Part shown: positions 52,384 to 57,540 of the stretch, one piece after another
Numbering within the stretch: position 1 is the stretch's first letter
Layout: each line of letters begins with the position of its first letter
Source: Geoglobus acetivorans
GTDB lineage: Archaea > Halobacteriota > Archaeoglobi > Archaeoglobales > Archaeoglobaceae
Assembly (NCBI RefSeq): GCF_000789255.1
Contig: NZ_CP009552.1
Coordinates: forward strand, 992,001 to 1,056,000
Direction of reading: 5' to 3'
DNA: 64,000 nucleotides
The notes under the pieces: model-generated
The model's input: only the letters and a program-made list of their open reading frames with translations
Database searches by the model: none
What the model was told of the DNA's origin: nothing
Made by a program: the position numbers and the translations under genes

Positions 52384-53019
52384 TTACTCAGTCTCTGCAA
52401 AATACCTTGAAATTATCTTGCAAAGCCCTTCCTGGATGTGCTTGTGGACAGCACTTTTGGAGACGTTCAAGGCGGTGGCAATGTCCTCAAGGGTTACCTT
52501 CCGCTTTCTGTCGAAATATCCCATTTCGTACGCCGCCTTCAGCACTGCGTACTGCCTTTCAGTGAGAGTCTCACCCTTTTCACCGATTATGCTCCTCACC
52601 TCGAGGACCTCCCAGTTGCCGACCTTCCTCAGCTTTTCATAGGCATTTCTGAGAAACTTGAGTTCAGGAGCATAAACCGTGTAAAGTTTTGAACCGTTTT
52701 CAACGATGATTGGTGGCTTTATGAAGCAGTATGATTCCTCAAAGGCTTTAATGCCGGTTGTATCTCGTATAACCGCAAGGAAATCCAGGTTCGTCTTGGT
52801 CTTCTCAAGAATTTGAAAAAATCTCGTGCTGGGATGGTTTTCTATTGCATTGAAGCACTTGCTTGGATCTCCGTCCATTCTTGTTATCCTTCCGAGAAAA
52901 AGAGCTTCCTCGTCATTCAAAAGAATGTACTCAAGAAGTTCAATCGTTGCGTTACCCATTGTCGTGGCAACTGCGAGAGAACAGGTGTGCTGATTCACCC
53001 TGATTTTTGCGAGATACAT
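52384..53019 (-). CDS. HTH transcriptional regulator, bacterio-opsin-activator (HTH_10) type
   Basis: 211 residues. The C-terminal HTH_10 domain reads TLTERQYAVLKAAYEMGYFD then RKRKVTLEDIATALNVSKSA (about residues 150-190), as in Bat-family regulators. The N-terminal 140 residues are a divergent sensor/ligand region. It is transcribed away from the DUF2193-DUF2180-aqpM operon across a 120-base gap with three GTCAAC elements, one pair of which flanks its own TATA box, so it is likely to control both itself and that operon. Confidence 0.88.
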   Translation of the reverse strand: MYLAKIRVNQHTCSLAVATTMGNATIELLEYILLNDEEALFLGRITRMDGDPSKCFNAIENHPSTRFFQILEKTKTNLDFLAVIRDTTGIKAFEESYCFIKPPIIVENGSKLYTVYAPELKFLRNAYEKLRKVGNWEVLEVRSIIGEKGETLTERQYAVLKAAYEMGYFDRKRKVTLEDIATALNVSKSAVHKHIQEGLCKIISRYFAETE

Positions 53020-53026
53020 GGTGTAT

Positions 53027-53093
53027 ATGTCAACTTAATCATATTTAACAATGAGCGTTGACATTTCCACGCACAAAGGGTAGATTTGTCAAC
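53027..53093. promoter_or_regulatory. Three GTCAAC-type motifs: putative operator
   Basis: ATGTCAAC (53027-53034) and its exact inverse GTTGACAT (53057-53064) are separated by 22 bases containing an AT-rich TATA candidate for the regulator. A third direct copy TGTCAAC (53087-53093) abuts the TATA box of the plus-strand operon. Such repeats in a divergent intergenic region are typical of regulator sites. Confidence 0.6.
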
Positions 53094-53096
53094 CAG

Positions 53097-53107
53097 AGTA
53101 TATATTT
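53097..53107 (+). promoter_or_regulatory. TATA box of the DUF2193-DUF2180-aqpM operon
   Basis: AGTATATATTTA, 33-43 bases before the ATG at 53140. This leaves a short leader with a ribosome site GGTGATT about 8 bases before the ATG. Confidence 0.6.
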
Positions 53108-53139
53108 ATCATTAATGATTATATTATTTCGGTGATTAG

Positions 53140-54639
53140 ATGAAGGAAGTCATTGAGAAGATGGTCGAGGAGGCCATCGCCGCCCAGTGGGCGGATGTGA
53201 ACGTGATTAAGGAGAAGAGAGGAGGAGAGTTTGTTATAGATGATGTAAAGCCGTATGTGGATGCGGTAAACAACATGAAGGCAGTTGGAAACCAGAGCAA
53301 GGCAGTAATAAGACTGCACGTGGACAGCGTGAATGCCCACTTCGAAATTTTGAGAAGTCTGACAAAGACCGTAAGGCCGGAAGACGACCCGTTCGTGGAG
53401 CATTACCAGACGCCGGCAATTCTTGAAATCCTGTACGAGGAAGATGAAAGTTTCAGAAAGAGTGTGGACAAGTTTATTGAGGCCATAGGGAAAGCCGAAG
53501 CCCTGATAGGGCTGGAGGTTGTCAGGAGATATGGCGGTTTCTACGGCCCCACCTGTGTTGTGGACTTTGCCCTCATACCGGGAAGCACAAGCAACATCGT
53601 GAACAGAATTTTAAAAACGGTTGACATACCGAAGGAGCATGCACAGGCAATCCTTGCCTCTAAGTCGTGGGGAATGAACACTTCCTACGGCTTTGGAGAG
53701 GTTTTTGCAAACGAGATTGAAAAGGGCGCAACACTGAGCGATGCTATAAAGAAGGAAATCGAGATGATCAAGCTCGTTTACGACCAGCCAATAGAAGCCC
53801 AGGCAAGGCTGATGGATGAGCACGGCCACGAGAGCTTCGACGTGAGGAAATACATGAGCGAATACAAGAACAGGATGAGAGGAGCGGTTAAGGAGGCAAT
53901 GGATGACGGTGTGCATTACGGCAACATTGTAACCGTGCCGGCATACTGTGTTGGAGATGCCGCCCACCACATTGCCCAGTCAACATTCAACATGTGCAAG
54001 GATGACGTTGTCATGGCAGTCATCGAAGCTGTCAGCAATGTCATGGAATCGACTCTCAGGGCAAATCTCGACAGATTCACAAGCGAGTATCAGCCACTGA
54101 CTCTGGCAACAGGCTCAACAGCAGTTGCAACAGAGTACATCTTAGAGCTTGACGGGTTCAACGCCCCGATGATCGTTGATCTGCTCACCAAGAGGTACCA
54201 CAACTACGTCCAGCTTTATCCGACGAGGGGTGGTGCTGCCGAGCTGCACAACCACGACTTCATGGACATGATATACAGGGGATGGAAGTACCTCGACAAG
54301 GCAAGAAGAGACAGAAACGGCCTTTCAGACAAGCTCGTGCCAAAGGTCTCGGGCTTCGAAGTGAACCTCGACCCAATCCACGAGAATGAGGTCCTGATGA
54401 ACCCGCAGCGCTATGCATATCCGGGATGTGCCATCAGCGTAAGGTTCTCGGCTCTGATGAGACTGGCAGACTATCCATGTCTGCTCACGAGCGAGCCAGT
54501 TACGGCAACCATGATGACCAACATCATCGCGCTGCACAAGGATACACCTGCATCACCGGCAAGAGTCTGTAAGGACTGTGCCACGGCAGCGCTTGTGGAC
54601 TTCAGACACTCATATTGCCAGTGGAAAGAGGCTGTTTAA
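53140..54639 (+). CDS. DUF2193 family protein
   Basis: 499 residues. Best matched, from memory, to the archaeal DUF2193 family, found mainly in methanogens and Archaeoglobales and of unknown function. It has several conserved-looking polar patches: VRRYGGFYGPTCVVDFALIP, DEHGHESFDVRKYM, DAAHHIAQSTFN and AAELHNHDFMDMIYRG, with His and Asp/Glu able to bind metal. A C-terminal Cys pair is seen in CKDCATAALVD. No signal peptide. It is the first gene of an operon with DUF2180 and an aquaporin. A T-run follows its stop. Confidence 0.85.
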   Translation: MKEVIEKMVEEAIAAQWADVNVIKEKRGGEFVIDDVKPYVDAVNNMKAVGNQSKAVIRLHVDSVNAHFEILRSLTKTVRPEDDPFVEHYQTPAILEILYEEDESFRKSVDKFIEAIGKAEALIGLEVVRRYGGFYGPTCVVDFALIPGSTSNIVNRILKTVDIPKEHAQAILASKSWGMNTSYGFGEVFANEIEKGATLSDAIKKEIEMIKLVYDQPIEAQARLMDEHGHESFDVRKYMSEYKNRMRGAVKEAMDDGVHYGNIVTVPAYCVGDAAHHIAQSTFNMCKDDVVMAVIEAVSNVMESTLRANLDRFTSEYQPLTLATGSTAVATEYILELDGFNAPMIVDLLTKRYHNYVQLYPTRGGAAELHNHDFMDMIYRGWKYLDKARRDRNGLSDKLVPKVSGFEVNLDPIHENEVLMNPQRYAYPGCAISVRFSALMRLADYPCLLTSEPVTATMMTNIIALHKDTPASPARVCKDCATAALVDFRHSYCQWKEAV

Positions 54640-54642
54640 CCC

Positions 54643-54658
54643 TTTCCCTTTTTTTGGG
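54643..54658 (+). terminator. T-rich run between the DUF2193 and DUF2180 genes
   Basis: CCCTTTTTTTGGG (54649-54658 region) with a short GC flank. It may cause partial termination so that the DUF2193 protein is made in excess over the two downstream genes. Confidence 0.3.
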
Positions 54659-54667
54659 TGAGCGCTT

Positions 54668-54877
54668 ATGAAATGTTATATTTGTAAAGAGCAGGGGAAA
54701 GATACCGAGGCTGTTGCGATCTGCATTGTCTGCGGAATGGGAGTCTGCATGGAGCATCTTGTGAGGAAGGACGTCGAGCTCTGGAAAGGAGATTACCCCT
54801 TCCCATCAAGAAAGCTGAAAAAGACCGTGCCGAGAATCCTGTGCTCCATCTGCAATGAAGCGTACGAGGAGGGCTGA
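54668..54877 (+). CDS. DUF2180 zinc-finger-like protein
   Basis: 69 residues. Cys pairs are CYICKEQG (residues 3-6), CIVCGMGVCMEH (about 18-29) and CSICNEAY near the end, with a His in CMEH, a treble-clef or B-box-like zinc motif. The family is archaeal and of unknown function. It lies between the DUF2193 gene and aqpM, two bases from the latter, so it is almost certainly co-transcribed with it. Confidence 0.85.
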   Translation: MKCYICKEQGKDTEAVAICIVCGMGVCMEHLVRKDVELWKGDYPFPSRKLKKTVPRILCSICNEAYEEG

Positions 54878-54879
54878 GG

Positions 54880-55614
54880 ATGACACTTGTAAAGAAATGC
54901 GTCTCCGAGCTCGTGGGAACTGCTCTGCTCGTTTATTTCGGTGCAGGTTCTGCAGTAATCACGCTCATGATCTCCAACAAAGCCCAGACACCAAACGAAT
55001 TCAATATCGGCATTGGAGCTCTGGGTGGACTTGGGGACTGGCTCGCAATAGGAATGGCCTTCGCGCTGATAATATCTGCCGTCATATACTCACTTGGGAG
55101 GGTCAGTGGAGCCCACATCAACCCCGCCGTAACCATTGCGCTCTGGGCAACAAAGAGGTTTCCAACCTCTGAAGTCGCACCGTACATCGTTGCACAGCTG
55201 ATTGGGGCGAGTCTTGGCAGCATTCTCTTCCTGGCAAGTGTCGGGAGCAACGCAGCGCTTATCGGAGGAATGGGTGCCACCGCACCATTTCCGGGAATAA
55301 GTTATGGGCAGGCCATCATTACAGAGGCGATCGGAACTTTTGTGCTGATGCTGGTCATAATGGGTGTCGCAGTTGATGAACGTGCCCCACCGGGGTTTGC
55401 AGGGCTTATAATCGGCCTTACAGTCGGAGGAATAATCATAACAATCGGAAACATCACAGGCTCATCACTGAACCCTGCAAGAACCTTCGGACCTTACCTC
55501 GTGGATTCGATGTATGGTATAAACCTCTGGCAGTACTTCCCGATATACATCATCGGCCCGATACTGGGGGCAGTTGCTGCAGCATTCCTTTACGACTATC
55601 TGGCAGGCAAGTAA
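54880..55614 (+). CDS. aqpM: Aquaporin M (MIP family channel)
   Basis: 244 residues with six membrane helices and two NPA boxes: GAHINPAVTIALW (about residues 80-92) and GSSLNPARTFGPYL (about 195-208). An Ile or Val at the selectivity filter, as in archaeal AqpM, fits a channel for water and small neutral solutes. The order DUF2193-DUF2180-aqpM hints at transport of a neutral gas or metabolite linked to the upstream unknown protein. T-rich sequence follows the stop. Confidence 0.96.
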   Translation: MTLVKKCVSELVGTALLVYFGAGSAVITLMISNKAQTPNEFNIGIGALGGLGDWLAIGMAFALIISAVIYSLGRVSGAHINPAVTIALWATKRFPTSEVAPYIVAQLIGASLGSILFLASVGSNAALIGGMGATAPFPGISYGQAIITEAIGTFVLMLVIMGVAVDERAPPGFAGLIIGLTVGGIIITIGNITGSSLNPARTFGPYLVDSMYGINLWQYFPIYIIGPILGAVAAAFLYDYLAGK

Positions 55615-55617
55615 AGG

Positions 55618-55636
55618 GCTCTTTTTAATTTTTTCA
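55618..55636 (+). terminator. T-rich terminator after aqpM
   Basis: GGCTCTTTTTAATTTTTTCAG and a following T-run. It lies between the convergent ends of aqpM and the histidine kinase gene and could serve both strands. Confidence 0.45.
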
Positions 55637-55639
55637 GCA

Positions 55640-57433
55640 TCATTTTTTAATTCTGATGATGAACCTTGCCCCCTGCTCTGACCTCTCGATGGTAATCTCG
55701 CCATCGTACCTCGTGAGCATAAGCTTCACAATGTACAGTCCAAACCCACCTCCAGACGTGCTGAAACCTGGATCGAAGATTTTGTCCGCAATTTCATCAG
55801 GTATGCCCCTTCCATTATCATGATACTCGATTATGCAGTATTCCGGAGTCTCTTCAATCCGTATGTCCACTCTGGTAGCATTCCCGTGTTTTATGGAGTT
55901 CTGTATGAGGTTGTCAAACACGACCTCTATGCCACTATCAACACTAACCCTGCAATCGCCCTCCACGTTGATTTCAATTTCCGGATAAAGCCTGCCCACC
56001 TTCACCAGCACGTCTCTGAGGTTTACCTCTCGTTTCTCGCCCTCCTTGAGAACAGCTTCCAGAACTCTTGAAACATCCAGCACCTTTTTCAGCCTTTCGA
56101 GTGATGCTTCCAGCCTTAAGAGGTAATCTTTCTCTCCAGTCTCCTCATACATCTCGAGATAGATCAGTGCGGAGGTGAGGTGGTTTGCTATGTCGTGCCT
56201 GATTATGGAATTAACAAGCCTGACCCCATCCCCATACTCCTCAAGCCTCTTGGAATACTTGTACAGGTTTTCCTTCATTTCACCAATGGCCTCTGAAAGC
56301 AGCCTCGCTTCCCTGTAATCTCTTCTCGGTCCGATTTTCATTTCATACAGTCCTCTGGATATCAGCCTGGATTTCTGAATGAGGTCCTCAATTGGCCTTA
56401 AAATGAAGTTCGAGAGAACGAGCCCCAGTATGGCAAATATCCCCGCAATACCAACGGCACTTATCATCGCACCCCTGTAAGACTCATAGAGAAGCCCGGT
56501 AAGAACATCCGACTTCACGGCGCTGATAATGAGATAATCTCTCCCGTTCTTGAGTCTGGCCCACTTGTAATACCCGTAAAACTCAGTCTCGTTGCCATAA
56601 GAGAATTTAACGAAACCCTCTTTATCCCGAAAATCAGCGAGATTCAGCAGCGGACACACCGGACAGGATTCGTTAAACTCCCTGGACGGATCGACAGTAT
56701 TCACAATGAACCTCGGTCCCAGGATTTCGCCCTCGGCGTTTTCATAATGCGGATCTACAATGAAGATATGCTCAGACCCGTTCATGTAAAGCTCCTTAAT
56801 AATCGAAAAAGACTTTTCAAAGTTGTAATTTGCAATAAGCAGGCCCATTACCTGACCATCATAGTAGAGTGGCATTGTGTATCTTATAGCCGGTGTTTCC
56901 GTGTGTCTCGCAATGTTTATCGGAGATATGTAGATGTCGGAAACGTTGCCGGATATTGTCTCCTCAAACCACTTTTTATCGCCCTTGTAATCAAAAAAAT
57001 CCTCTCGTTCGTAAACGGTCCCCGCAACCACGTAGCCATCCTTCCAGAAGATCCTCAGCATTTCAATGTCATCACTCGAATTGCCCACAGACAGGAAAAG
57101 TTCGATTAATCTGCGGTATTCAGAGCTGTTACTGAACTCGGAAGGATAGGGAGGACTCAAATTTCCGGACATTTTGGTTTTTGCGAACCTGTTGAAAAAA
57201 GAAGAGACTTCCCTATGTGATGCGACAAACATGAACTCCTTCTTCTGAGCATCTATTTTGCTGTTGAGAAGTTTCTCAATGGAGTTCACCTTAGTCTTCA
57301 TTTTTTCTTCAATCTGAGTGCTGAAATGTGTGGTATAGGTGTCCAGATTGATGTAAGCGACGGTAATTGCAGCCGAAATTACGGAGGATATGAGAATGGC
57401 GGTGATCAAAAATGCGAGAGTAACTTTGTCCAT
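55640..57433 (-). CDS. Membrane sensor histidine kinase (Cache-type sensor, HAMP, HisKA, HATPase)
   Basis: About 597 residues from the ATG at 57433 (MDKVTLAFLITAILISS), preferred over an upstream start at 57535 because the membrane helix then begins immediately. A long extracytoplasmic segment (about 30-330) contains Cache-like DGYVVAG and YTMPLYYDGQVMGLLIANYN. A second helix, then HAMP (SNFILRPIEDLIQ), DHp IRHDIANHLTSALIY (phospho-His) and HATPase boxes DNLIQNSIKHG, YHDNGRGIP, FGLYIVK follow. No response regulator is adjacent; the one at 31358 is the only receiver in the window. Confidence 0.93.
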   Translation of the reverse strand: MDKVTLAFLITAILISSVISAAITVAYINLDTYTTHFSTQIEEKMKTKVNSIEKLLNSKIDAQKKEFMFVASHREVSSFFNRFAKTKMSGNLSPPYPSEFSNSSEYRRLIELFLSVGNSSDDIEMLRIFWKDGYVVAGTVYEREDFFDYKGDKKWFEETISGNVSDIYISPINIARHTETPAIRYTMPLYYDGQVMGLLIANYNFEKSFSIIKELYMNGSEHIFIVDPHYENAEGEILGPRFIVNTVDPSREFNESCPVCPLLNLADFRDKEGFVKFSYGNETEFYGYYKWARLKNGRDYLIISAVKSDVLTGLLYESYRGAMISAVGIAGIFAILGLVLSNFILRPIEDLIQKSRLISRGLYEMKIGPRRDYREARLLSEAIGEMKENLYKYSKRLEEYGDGVRLVNSIIRHDIANHLTSALIYLEMYEETGEKDYLLRLEASLERLKKVLDVSRVLEAVLKEGEKREVNLRDVLVKVGRLYPEIEINVEGDCRVSVDSGIEVVFDNLIQNSIKHGNATRVDIRIEETPEYCIIEYHDNGRGIPDEIADKIFDPGFSTSGGGFGLYIVKLMLTRYDGEITIERSEQGARFIIRIKK

Positions 57434-57510
57434 TGAACTCAGATTTTTCAGTGAGCAAATAAATCTTTTTATTTCATGCTTCCTGAGGGAATGTTCAACA
57501 GAAGAAGGAT

Positions 57511-57518
57511 ATTTATAC
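57511..57518 (+). promoter_or_regulatory. TATA box of the 2-hydroxyacid dehydrogenase operon
   Basis: ATTTATAC about 27 bases before the ATG at 57541. Confidence 0.5.
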
Positions 57519-57540
57519 ATGCAAATCATCAGCATTAATC

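Follow-up and report, generated by a model that had tools for sequence, protein, structure and literature searches.

What might a large protein and a small Cys/His-rich one, both from families that Pfam lists without function, be doing upstream of an archaeal aquaporin gene? The question is raised by a locus in the window analysed here, a stretch of 64,000 nucleotides from the closed genome (1,860,815 bp) of Geoglobus acetivorans. The features of this locus are as follows, in window coordinates:

53099-53109, + strand: putative archaeal TATA element TATATATTTAT, assigned by eye and unscored, 41 bp 5' of the DUF2193 start codon
53140-54639, + strand: DUF2193, A-type, 499 aa (Pfam PF09959, alignment, model)
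54649-54655, + strand: run of seven T residues 3' of DUF2193, possible internal terminator (from the sequence)
54668-54877, + strand: DUF2180, 69 aa (Pfam PF09947, ligand alignment)
54880-55614, + strand: AqpM, MIP channel, 244 aa (Pfam PF00230, structure match, filter)
55622-55634, + strand: T-rich tract 3' of aqpM, probable terminator (from the sequence)

The open reading frames and Pfam matches agree with an earlier note on this DNA, in which three closely spaced genes had been read at these places. All three lie on the same strand with intergenic gaps of 28 bp and 2 bp, a spacing which makes co-transcription likely. A GGTGA ribosome-binding site, seen by eye, precedes DUF2193, and the oligo-T run at 54649-54655 might serve as an archaeal internal terminator ending some transcripts between DUF2193 and DUF2180. 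The DUF2180 and MIP genes are the only ones in this genome, while DUF2193 is encoded a second time at C1:1121833-1123287. The opposite strand encodes a sensor histidine kinase, convergent with aqpM (55640-57535, - strand), in which a Cache domain is weakly matched; it is not conserved with the operon.

When 84,980 species genomes were searched, 80 relatives were obtained from Archaeoglobi, methanogens, Methanoperedens and other Euryarchaeota, with identities of 64-92% over the best segment. Linkage was counted in one genome per species at 74 loci, that of the window among them, where the sequence extends 1.1 kb or more downstream, and was scored if a MIP gene lay on the same strand no more than 420 bp 3' of DUF2193. 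A MIP gene directly follows A-type DUF2193 in 70 of these loci, or in 71 if a frameshifted contig (L020) is included, and the linkage spans Archaeoglobi and many methanogen genera. DUF2180 was scored in 67/74 loci, to which L059 adds one inside a longer ORF. In the full set of A-type loci retrieved, where species overlap, AqpM is found in 136/139 and DUF2180 in 110/139. As the genomes hold just one or two MIP genes each, the adjacency of DUF2193 and AqpM goes beyond chance. The remaining neighbours differ by lineage, and neighbour clustering revealed no further widely conserved one. Within the window's phylum, DUF2193 itself was found in 85 of 295 genomes; for the phylum to which a Methanobacteriaceae genome belongs, the count is 82 of 152.

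The operon idea of the earlier note is thus upheld as a conserved unit. The co-occurrence check in archaeal genomes that it proposed has been run: the order DUF2193-AqpM is kept, usually with DUF2180 in between, and the random neighbourhoods which it named as the opposing case were not seen, AqpM following DUF2193 in 71/74 loci. Its description as a three-part system needs correction, the parts being unequal. DUF2180 is dispensable, since it is absent from many loci, among them those of Methanobrevibacter-type and Methanosarcinaceae genomes, at which DUF2193-AqpM stays. A merely inherited arrangement without functional coupling between DUF2193 and AqpM would be in keeping with the few genomes in which DUF2180-AqpM persists without intact DUF2193 (G116, G243). 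However, the pair has been kept in 71/74 loci with all other neighbours differing, the genes are closely spaced, and in some genomes a divergent MIP channel occupies the same place, so that this explanation is very improbable.

Decay of the operon was observed in several forms, namely fragments in G102, an eroded DUF2193 in G243, DUF2180-AqpM alone in G116, and DUF2180 with a broken AqpM in G258 (decay loci L179:3184-3596, L182, L183 and L184). At another locus an isochorismatase-family hydrolase is encoded 3' of DUF2193 in place of DUF2180-AqpM (L041:7517-8128), and PNPOx-like small flavin-binding genes adjoin DUF2193 at two loci where AqpM is absent (L180:4660-5070, L069:7794-8237).

The window channel matches the MIP family (PF00230) with 168 bits, carries two NPA motifs and an AqpM-type filter, and can be aligned over nearly its full length with the solved AqpM structures 3ne2 and 2evu/2f2b. 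Solutes on record for AqpM are water and, slowly, glycerol. Read at the positions of F62, I187, S196 and R202 of Methanothermobacter AqpM, the filter of the operon channels is F-I-[S/A/G/T]-R in 116 of 117 sequences and F-V-S-R in one; the divergent MIP channels found in AqpM's place at L013, L014 and L063 keep the F-I pattern. Judged from these residues, the filter is narrow and hydrophobic. In a molecular-dynamics simulation of AqpM, the minimum radius was 1.4 Å and the filter narrower than that of GlpF (PMC3287591). H2S was considered as a solute and judged unlikely, evidence against its transport being cited in a passage of the same paper.

DUF2193 matches PF09959 with 923 bits over 498/498 positions (curated cut-off 25 bits), its sole Pfam match. 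With a GRAVY of -0.2 and no 19-residue window above 1.2, it looks like a soluble protein. The AlphaFold2 model is almost all helix (pLDDT 92.6, pTM 0.92). A Foldseek comparison of this model with solved structures in the PDB gave no match at E <= 0.001, the best probability being 0.15 among the 50 matches listed, and a fold search of viral libraries gave no match either. Searches of solved structures with the single sequence returned no match, and those with a profile weak unrelated hits only. The alignment of 55 members has 52 invariant columns, among them those of His67, His276, His277, His370, Asp373, Asp376 and Cys447. The aligned members include a second clade, B, whose identity to the window protein is no more than 33-39%, and since the 52 columns are invariant despite an identity of about 35% between the clades, catalysis is suggested and DUF2193 may well be an enzyme.

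Clade B, which the earlier note did not cover, forms a monophyletic sister of the A-type (FastTree support 1.0), and its operons provide the best functional lead. A MIP neighbour is found in none of its 13 loci. Instead, DUF2193-B lies directly 3' of MtrH in 10/13 loci and in the same operon in 12/13; in Archaeoglobaceae it starts within the end of the MtrH-family gene or a few bases past it. One operon reads MtrH - Mer - AOR - DUF2193-B (L121), with MtrH (321 bits, cut-off 271) and Mer (445 bits, cut-off 349) both above the NCBI equivalog cut-offs, and another MtrH - MtaA-like - AOR - DUF2193-B - Mer (L120). At L124 an AOR gene, recognised by eye, overlaps DUF2193-B by 4 bp and is followed by the start of Mer, where the contig ends. 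The gene for AOR, aldehyde:ferredoxin oxidoreductase, overlaps DUF2193-B in all three of these genomes, each of which also has a gene for Mer, methylene-tetrahydromethanopterin reductase, at the locus. In the window's own genome an MtrH-like gene overlaps the second DUF2193 (G000 C1:1121028-1123287; L113:6005-8294), and a PNPOx-like-looking gene without Pfam match lies 3' of it (L113:8314-8733).

The neighbour of DUF2193-B is the sole MtrH-family gene both in the window genome and in G034. For Geoglobus ahangari a lone MtrH has been reported, the remaining Mtr subunits being absent (PMC4600277), and pairing with DUF2193-B is a possible explanation of this orphan MtrH of Geoglobus. For the A-type, an obligatory MtrH partner was rejected, since 8 of 24 DUF2193-positive Archaeoglobaceae lack any MtrH. 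Mer over the cut-off is present in 24/24 Archaeoglobaceae with DUF2193 and in 18/27 without it (51 genomes; Fisher p = 0.0015, relatedness uncorrected). Because several genomes hold Mer without DUF2193, the function of the latter would be accessory. In G102 no Mer over the cut-off was found, and AqpM/DUF2180 are present only as decayed remnants.

The proximity to MtrH raises the possibility that DUF2193 acts at the methyl level, shuttling methyl groups between tetrahydromethanopterin (H4MPT) and a small donor, for example methanol, in clade B via MtrH and in replacement of a corrinoid protein. Such a role would suit the overlapping or abutting MtrH in 10/13 loci, the MtaA-like gene in L120 and the fact that no corrinoid-protein gene was recognised in the MtrH/Mer/AOR-DUF2193-B operons, and would account for the Geoglobus orphan MtrH (PMC4600277). 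It is nevertheless unlikely: some A-type genomes are without any MtrH, the AOR overlap in three loci better suits an aldehyde, and DUF2193 matches no known corrinoid-binding fold, searches by Pfam, profile or fold having revealed no homology to corrinoid/methanol methyltransferases of the MtaB or MtrA type.

A metal is suggested by a Cys/His site at the C-terminus of DUF2193, CX2CX9HX2C in the window protein (residues 477-493). The pattern CX2CX8-9[H/C]X2C is present in 54 of the 55 aligned homologues and is predicted to form a conserved metal site. The structure prediction called for by the earlier note hence supplied a confident all-helical model, to which the alignment adds this site, and did not lead to a solved relative. 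Within the open library, the literature search found DUF2193 named in an iron/sulfur proteomics paper alone (PMC9431491) and DUF2180 in none; searching by locus tag added nothing relevant. That paper, on growth with pyrite, also holds the only expression data found for DUF2193: the abundance of Mvol_0354, a family member, was higher on FeS2, and a role as ligand of a labile cluster was proposed for it. The motif given there is refined here, as its Asp is not kept in the B clade.

DUF2180 matches PF09947 with 131.5 bits over 68/68 positions. Its eight Cys/His ligands (C3, C6, C19, C22, C27, H30, C59 and C62) are each at least 97% conserved across 109 sequences, in which species overlap, and the layout CxxC-CxxC-CxxH-CxxC is typical of two-zinc cross-brace domains, the fold predicted here. 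Given these near-invariant ligands, the metal-binding helper envisaged by the earlier note is a reasonable description. Tandem pairs of DUF2180 genes also occur in Methanosarcinaceae, in the vicinity of mer. At L164, L166, L169, L171 and L172 such pairs stand beside a CMD/AhpD-like gene, a multihaem cytochrome and flavoprotein genes (AfpA); four of these loci also have mer nearby, and the cluster is redox-looking.

These findings bear on a role of DUF2193 in iron/sulfur handling, in which the C-terminal site would hold a labile cluster or iron, the operon would answer metal or sulfide supply and AqpM would move H2S or water. The abundance of Mvol_0354 on FeS2 and its proposed ligand role (PMC9431491), the site in 54/55 homologues and the flavoprotein genes and haem cytochrome adjoining Methanosarcinaceae DUF2180 pairs all agree with it. 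On balance this role is doubtful. The Cys/His cluster is shaped like a structural zinc or rubredoxin-type site, many other invariant residues of DUF2193 and the occurrence of clade B among MtrH/Mer/AOR genes are left unexplained, and the AqpM paper cites, in the passage mentioned above, evidence against H2S transport (PMC3287591).

Upstream of the operon lie a divergent regulator gene and an array of repeats, neither of which figured in the earlier note:

52384-53019, - strand: HTH_10 transcription regulator, 211 aa (Pfam HTH_10, 70.9 bits), divergent from the operon
53021-53034, no strand assigned: operator-like repeat I, GTGTATATGTCAAC, adjoining the regulator start codon; in relatives GTGGACATGTCCAC-like copies are found there
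53057-53070, no strand assigned: operator-like repeat II, GTTGACATTTCCAC, in inverted orientation with respect to repeat I
53080-53093, no strand assigned: operator-like repeat III, GTAGATTTGTCAAC, immediately 5' of the TATA element

The regulator carries its HTH_10 domain, which scores as a family member, at the C-terminus and an N-terminal sensor domain with Cys13 and Cys98 invariant in the alignment. Its model (pLDDT 88) gave weak hits in a fold search (Ta1207, sigma region 4), none at E <= 0.001. An orthologue adjoins DUF2193 in 38 loci, divergently in 29 (species overlap), all in Archaeoglobi except for one Methanosarcinaceae locus. The three repeats lie in and beside the 120 bp between regulator and DUF2193. 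They are palindrome-like; the consensus is roughly GTGGACATGTCCAC among relatives, and the window copies resemble GTTGACATTTCCAC. The spaced pair of repeats I and II is present at the DUF2193 operon in about 10 of 17 Archaeoglobaceae genomes scanned, and no other recurring intergenic place was seen for it in these 17 genomes. Regulator and repeats probably constitute a dedicated, autoregulated switch, and from the two invariant cysteines a redox or metal signal is plausible. A wider regulon was sought through the operator motif and rejected, exact GGACATGTCC being no commoner than a reversed control in 12 genomes. A paralogue of the regulator is encoded near an MtrH-DUF2193-B pair (L114:4172-4843), which suggests related regulation.

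The two cysteines would also be compatible with a stress operon responding to turgor, pressure or oxidants, with AqpM passing water or peroxide and DUF2193 as its partner or a protectant. The fourfold increase of aqpM at 25 MPa in a Methanocalculus strain (PMC12727201) and the CMD/AhpD-like and flavoprotein genes adjoining DUF2180 in Methanosarcinaceae point in the same direction. Yet this would leave the C1 operons of clade B unexplained, along with the enzyme-like invariance of DUF2193, and DUF2193 and DUF2180 are absent from the table of that paper, which lists named functions only; a stress role is accordingly improbable.

We favour, with a probability of roughly 0.4, that DUF2193 is an H4MPT-linked one-carbon metalloenzyme acting on a small neutral compound moved by AqpM. 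This reading draws on the conservation of the operon, the channel filter, the regulator with its operator array, the lack of a solved-structure match, the B-clade context and the co-occurrence with Mer; that DUF2193 is an enzyme, together with its cofactor, solute and direction, is what we infer. As a soluble, metal-containing enzyme, DUF2193 would exchange a C1 unit between H4MPT and a small uncharged C1 compound, which AqpM would pass across the membrane, while DUF2180 would be an accessory two-zinc protein. In Archaeoglobi the HTH_10 regulator, perhaps redox- or metal-sensing, would switch the operon via the three repeats. The suggestion of the earlier note that DUF2193 makes, uses or senses a neutral solute moved by AqpM fits the tight pairing of the genes, its chemistry and solute being matters of inference.

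The likeliest solute, a tentative choice with odds well short of even, is formaldehyde/methanediol, exchanged at the methylene-H4MPT level; methanol, exchanged at the methyl level, ranks second and is rather unlikely. In B operons a methyl group could pass to methyl-H4MPT (MtrH), methylene-H4MPT (Mer), formaldehyde (DUF2193-B) and formate (AOR). In the A operon DUF2193 would connect methylene-H4MPT with formaldehyde/methanediol passed by AqpM, so as to scavenge, detoxify or release it. The constant MtrH of clade B would suit the methyl/methanol variant better, the AOR would not. No conserved C1 gene adjoins A-type DUF2193, whose connection to C1 chemistry is drawn from the paralogue, DUF2180 and the co-occurrence with Mer. 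The sister genes among C1 genes point to an overlooked step involving a small one-carbon molecule.

The chemistry of C1 metabolism in methanogens is thought to be near-complete, yet a highly conserved large protein without solved relative is tied to the aquaporin in many of these organisms. If the C1 reading is true, the methane pathway would have an extra entry or exit point, archaeal AqpM a physiological solute, and the lone MtrH of Geoglobus and its relatives an explanation. The fullest form of this proposal, a new enzyme fold catalysing H4MPT-linked exchange of a C1 unit with a small neutral molecule that AqpM carries, as a so far unrecognised C1 gateway of many methanogen lineages and Archaeoglobi, with the B clade as the missing partner of the orphan MtrH in Archaeoglobi, is possible but speculative.

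Comparison with known systems places the operon as follows. Its channel shares the F-I-S/A-R filter, the NPA motifs and a near full-length match with the AqpM aquaporins of Methanothermobacter (2f2b/2evu) and Archaeoglobus (3ne2), whereas the prior papers found treat AqpM alone, without its near-invariant DUF2193 partner. Fae, the formaldehyde-activating enzyme, catalyses the conversion of formaldehyde to and from methylene-H4MPT. The step proposed for DUF2193 is the same, by analogy only, since no homology to Fae was found by Pfam, single-sequence, profile or fold search (E <= 0.001). MtrH-family operons (Mtr; MtgA-type) are alike in that DUF2193-B is co-encoded with MtrH, but DUF2193-B has no recognised corrinoid gene adjacent and the A-type has no MtrH. 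MIP channels are encoded together with enzymes in glpF-glpK and, as LarD, in the lactate racemase operon. DUF2193, the enzyme candidate here, is unrelated to those enzymes and stands outside every known enzyme family tested; by analogy, the operon may nonetheless work like these channel-plus-enzyme operons, pairing a passive channel for a small neutral solute with a soluble, probably enzymatic protein.
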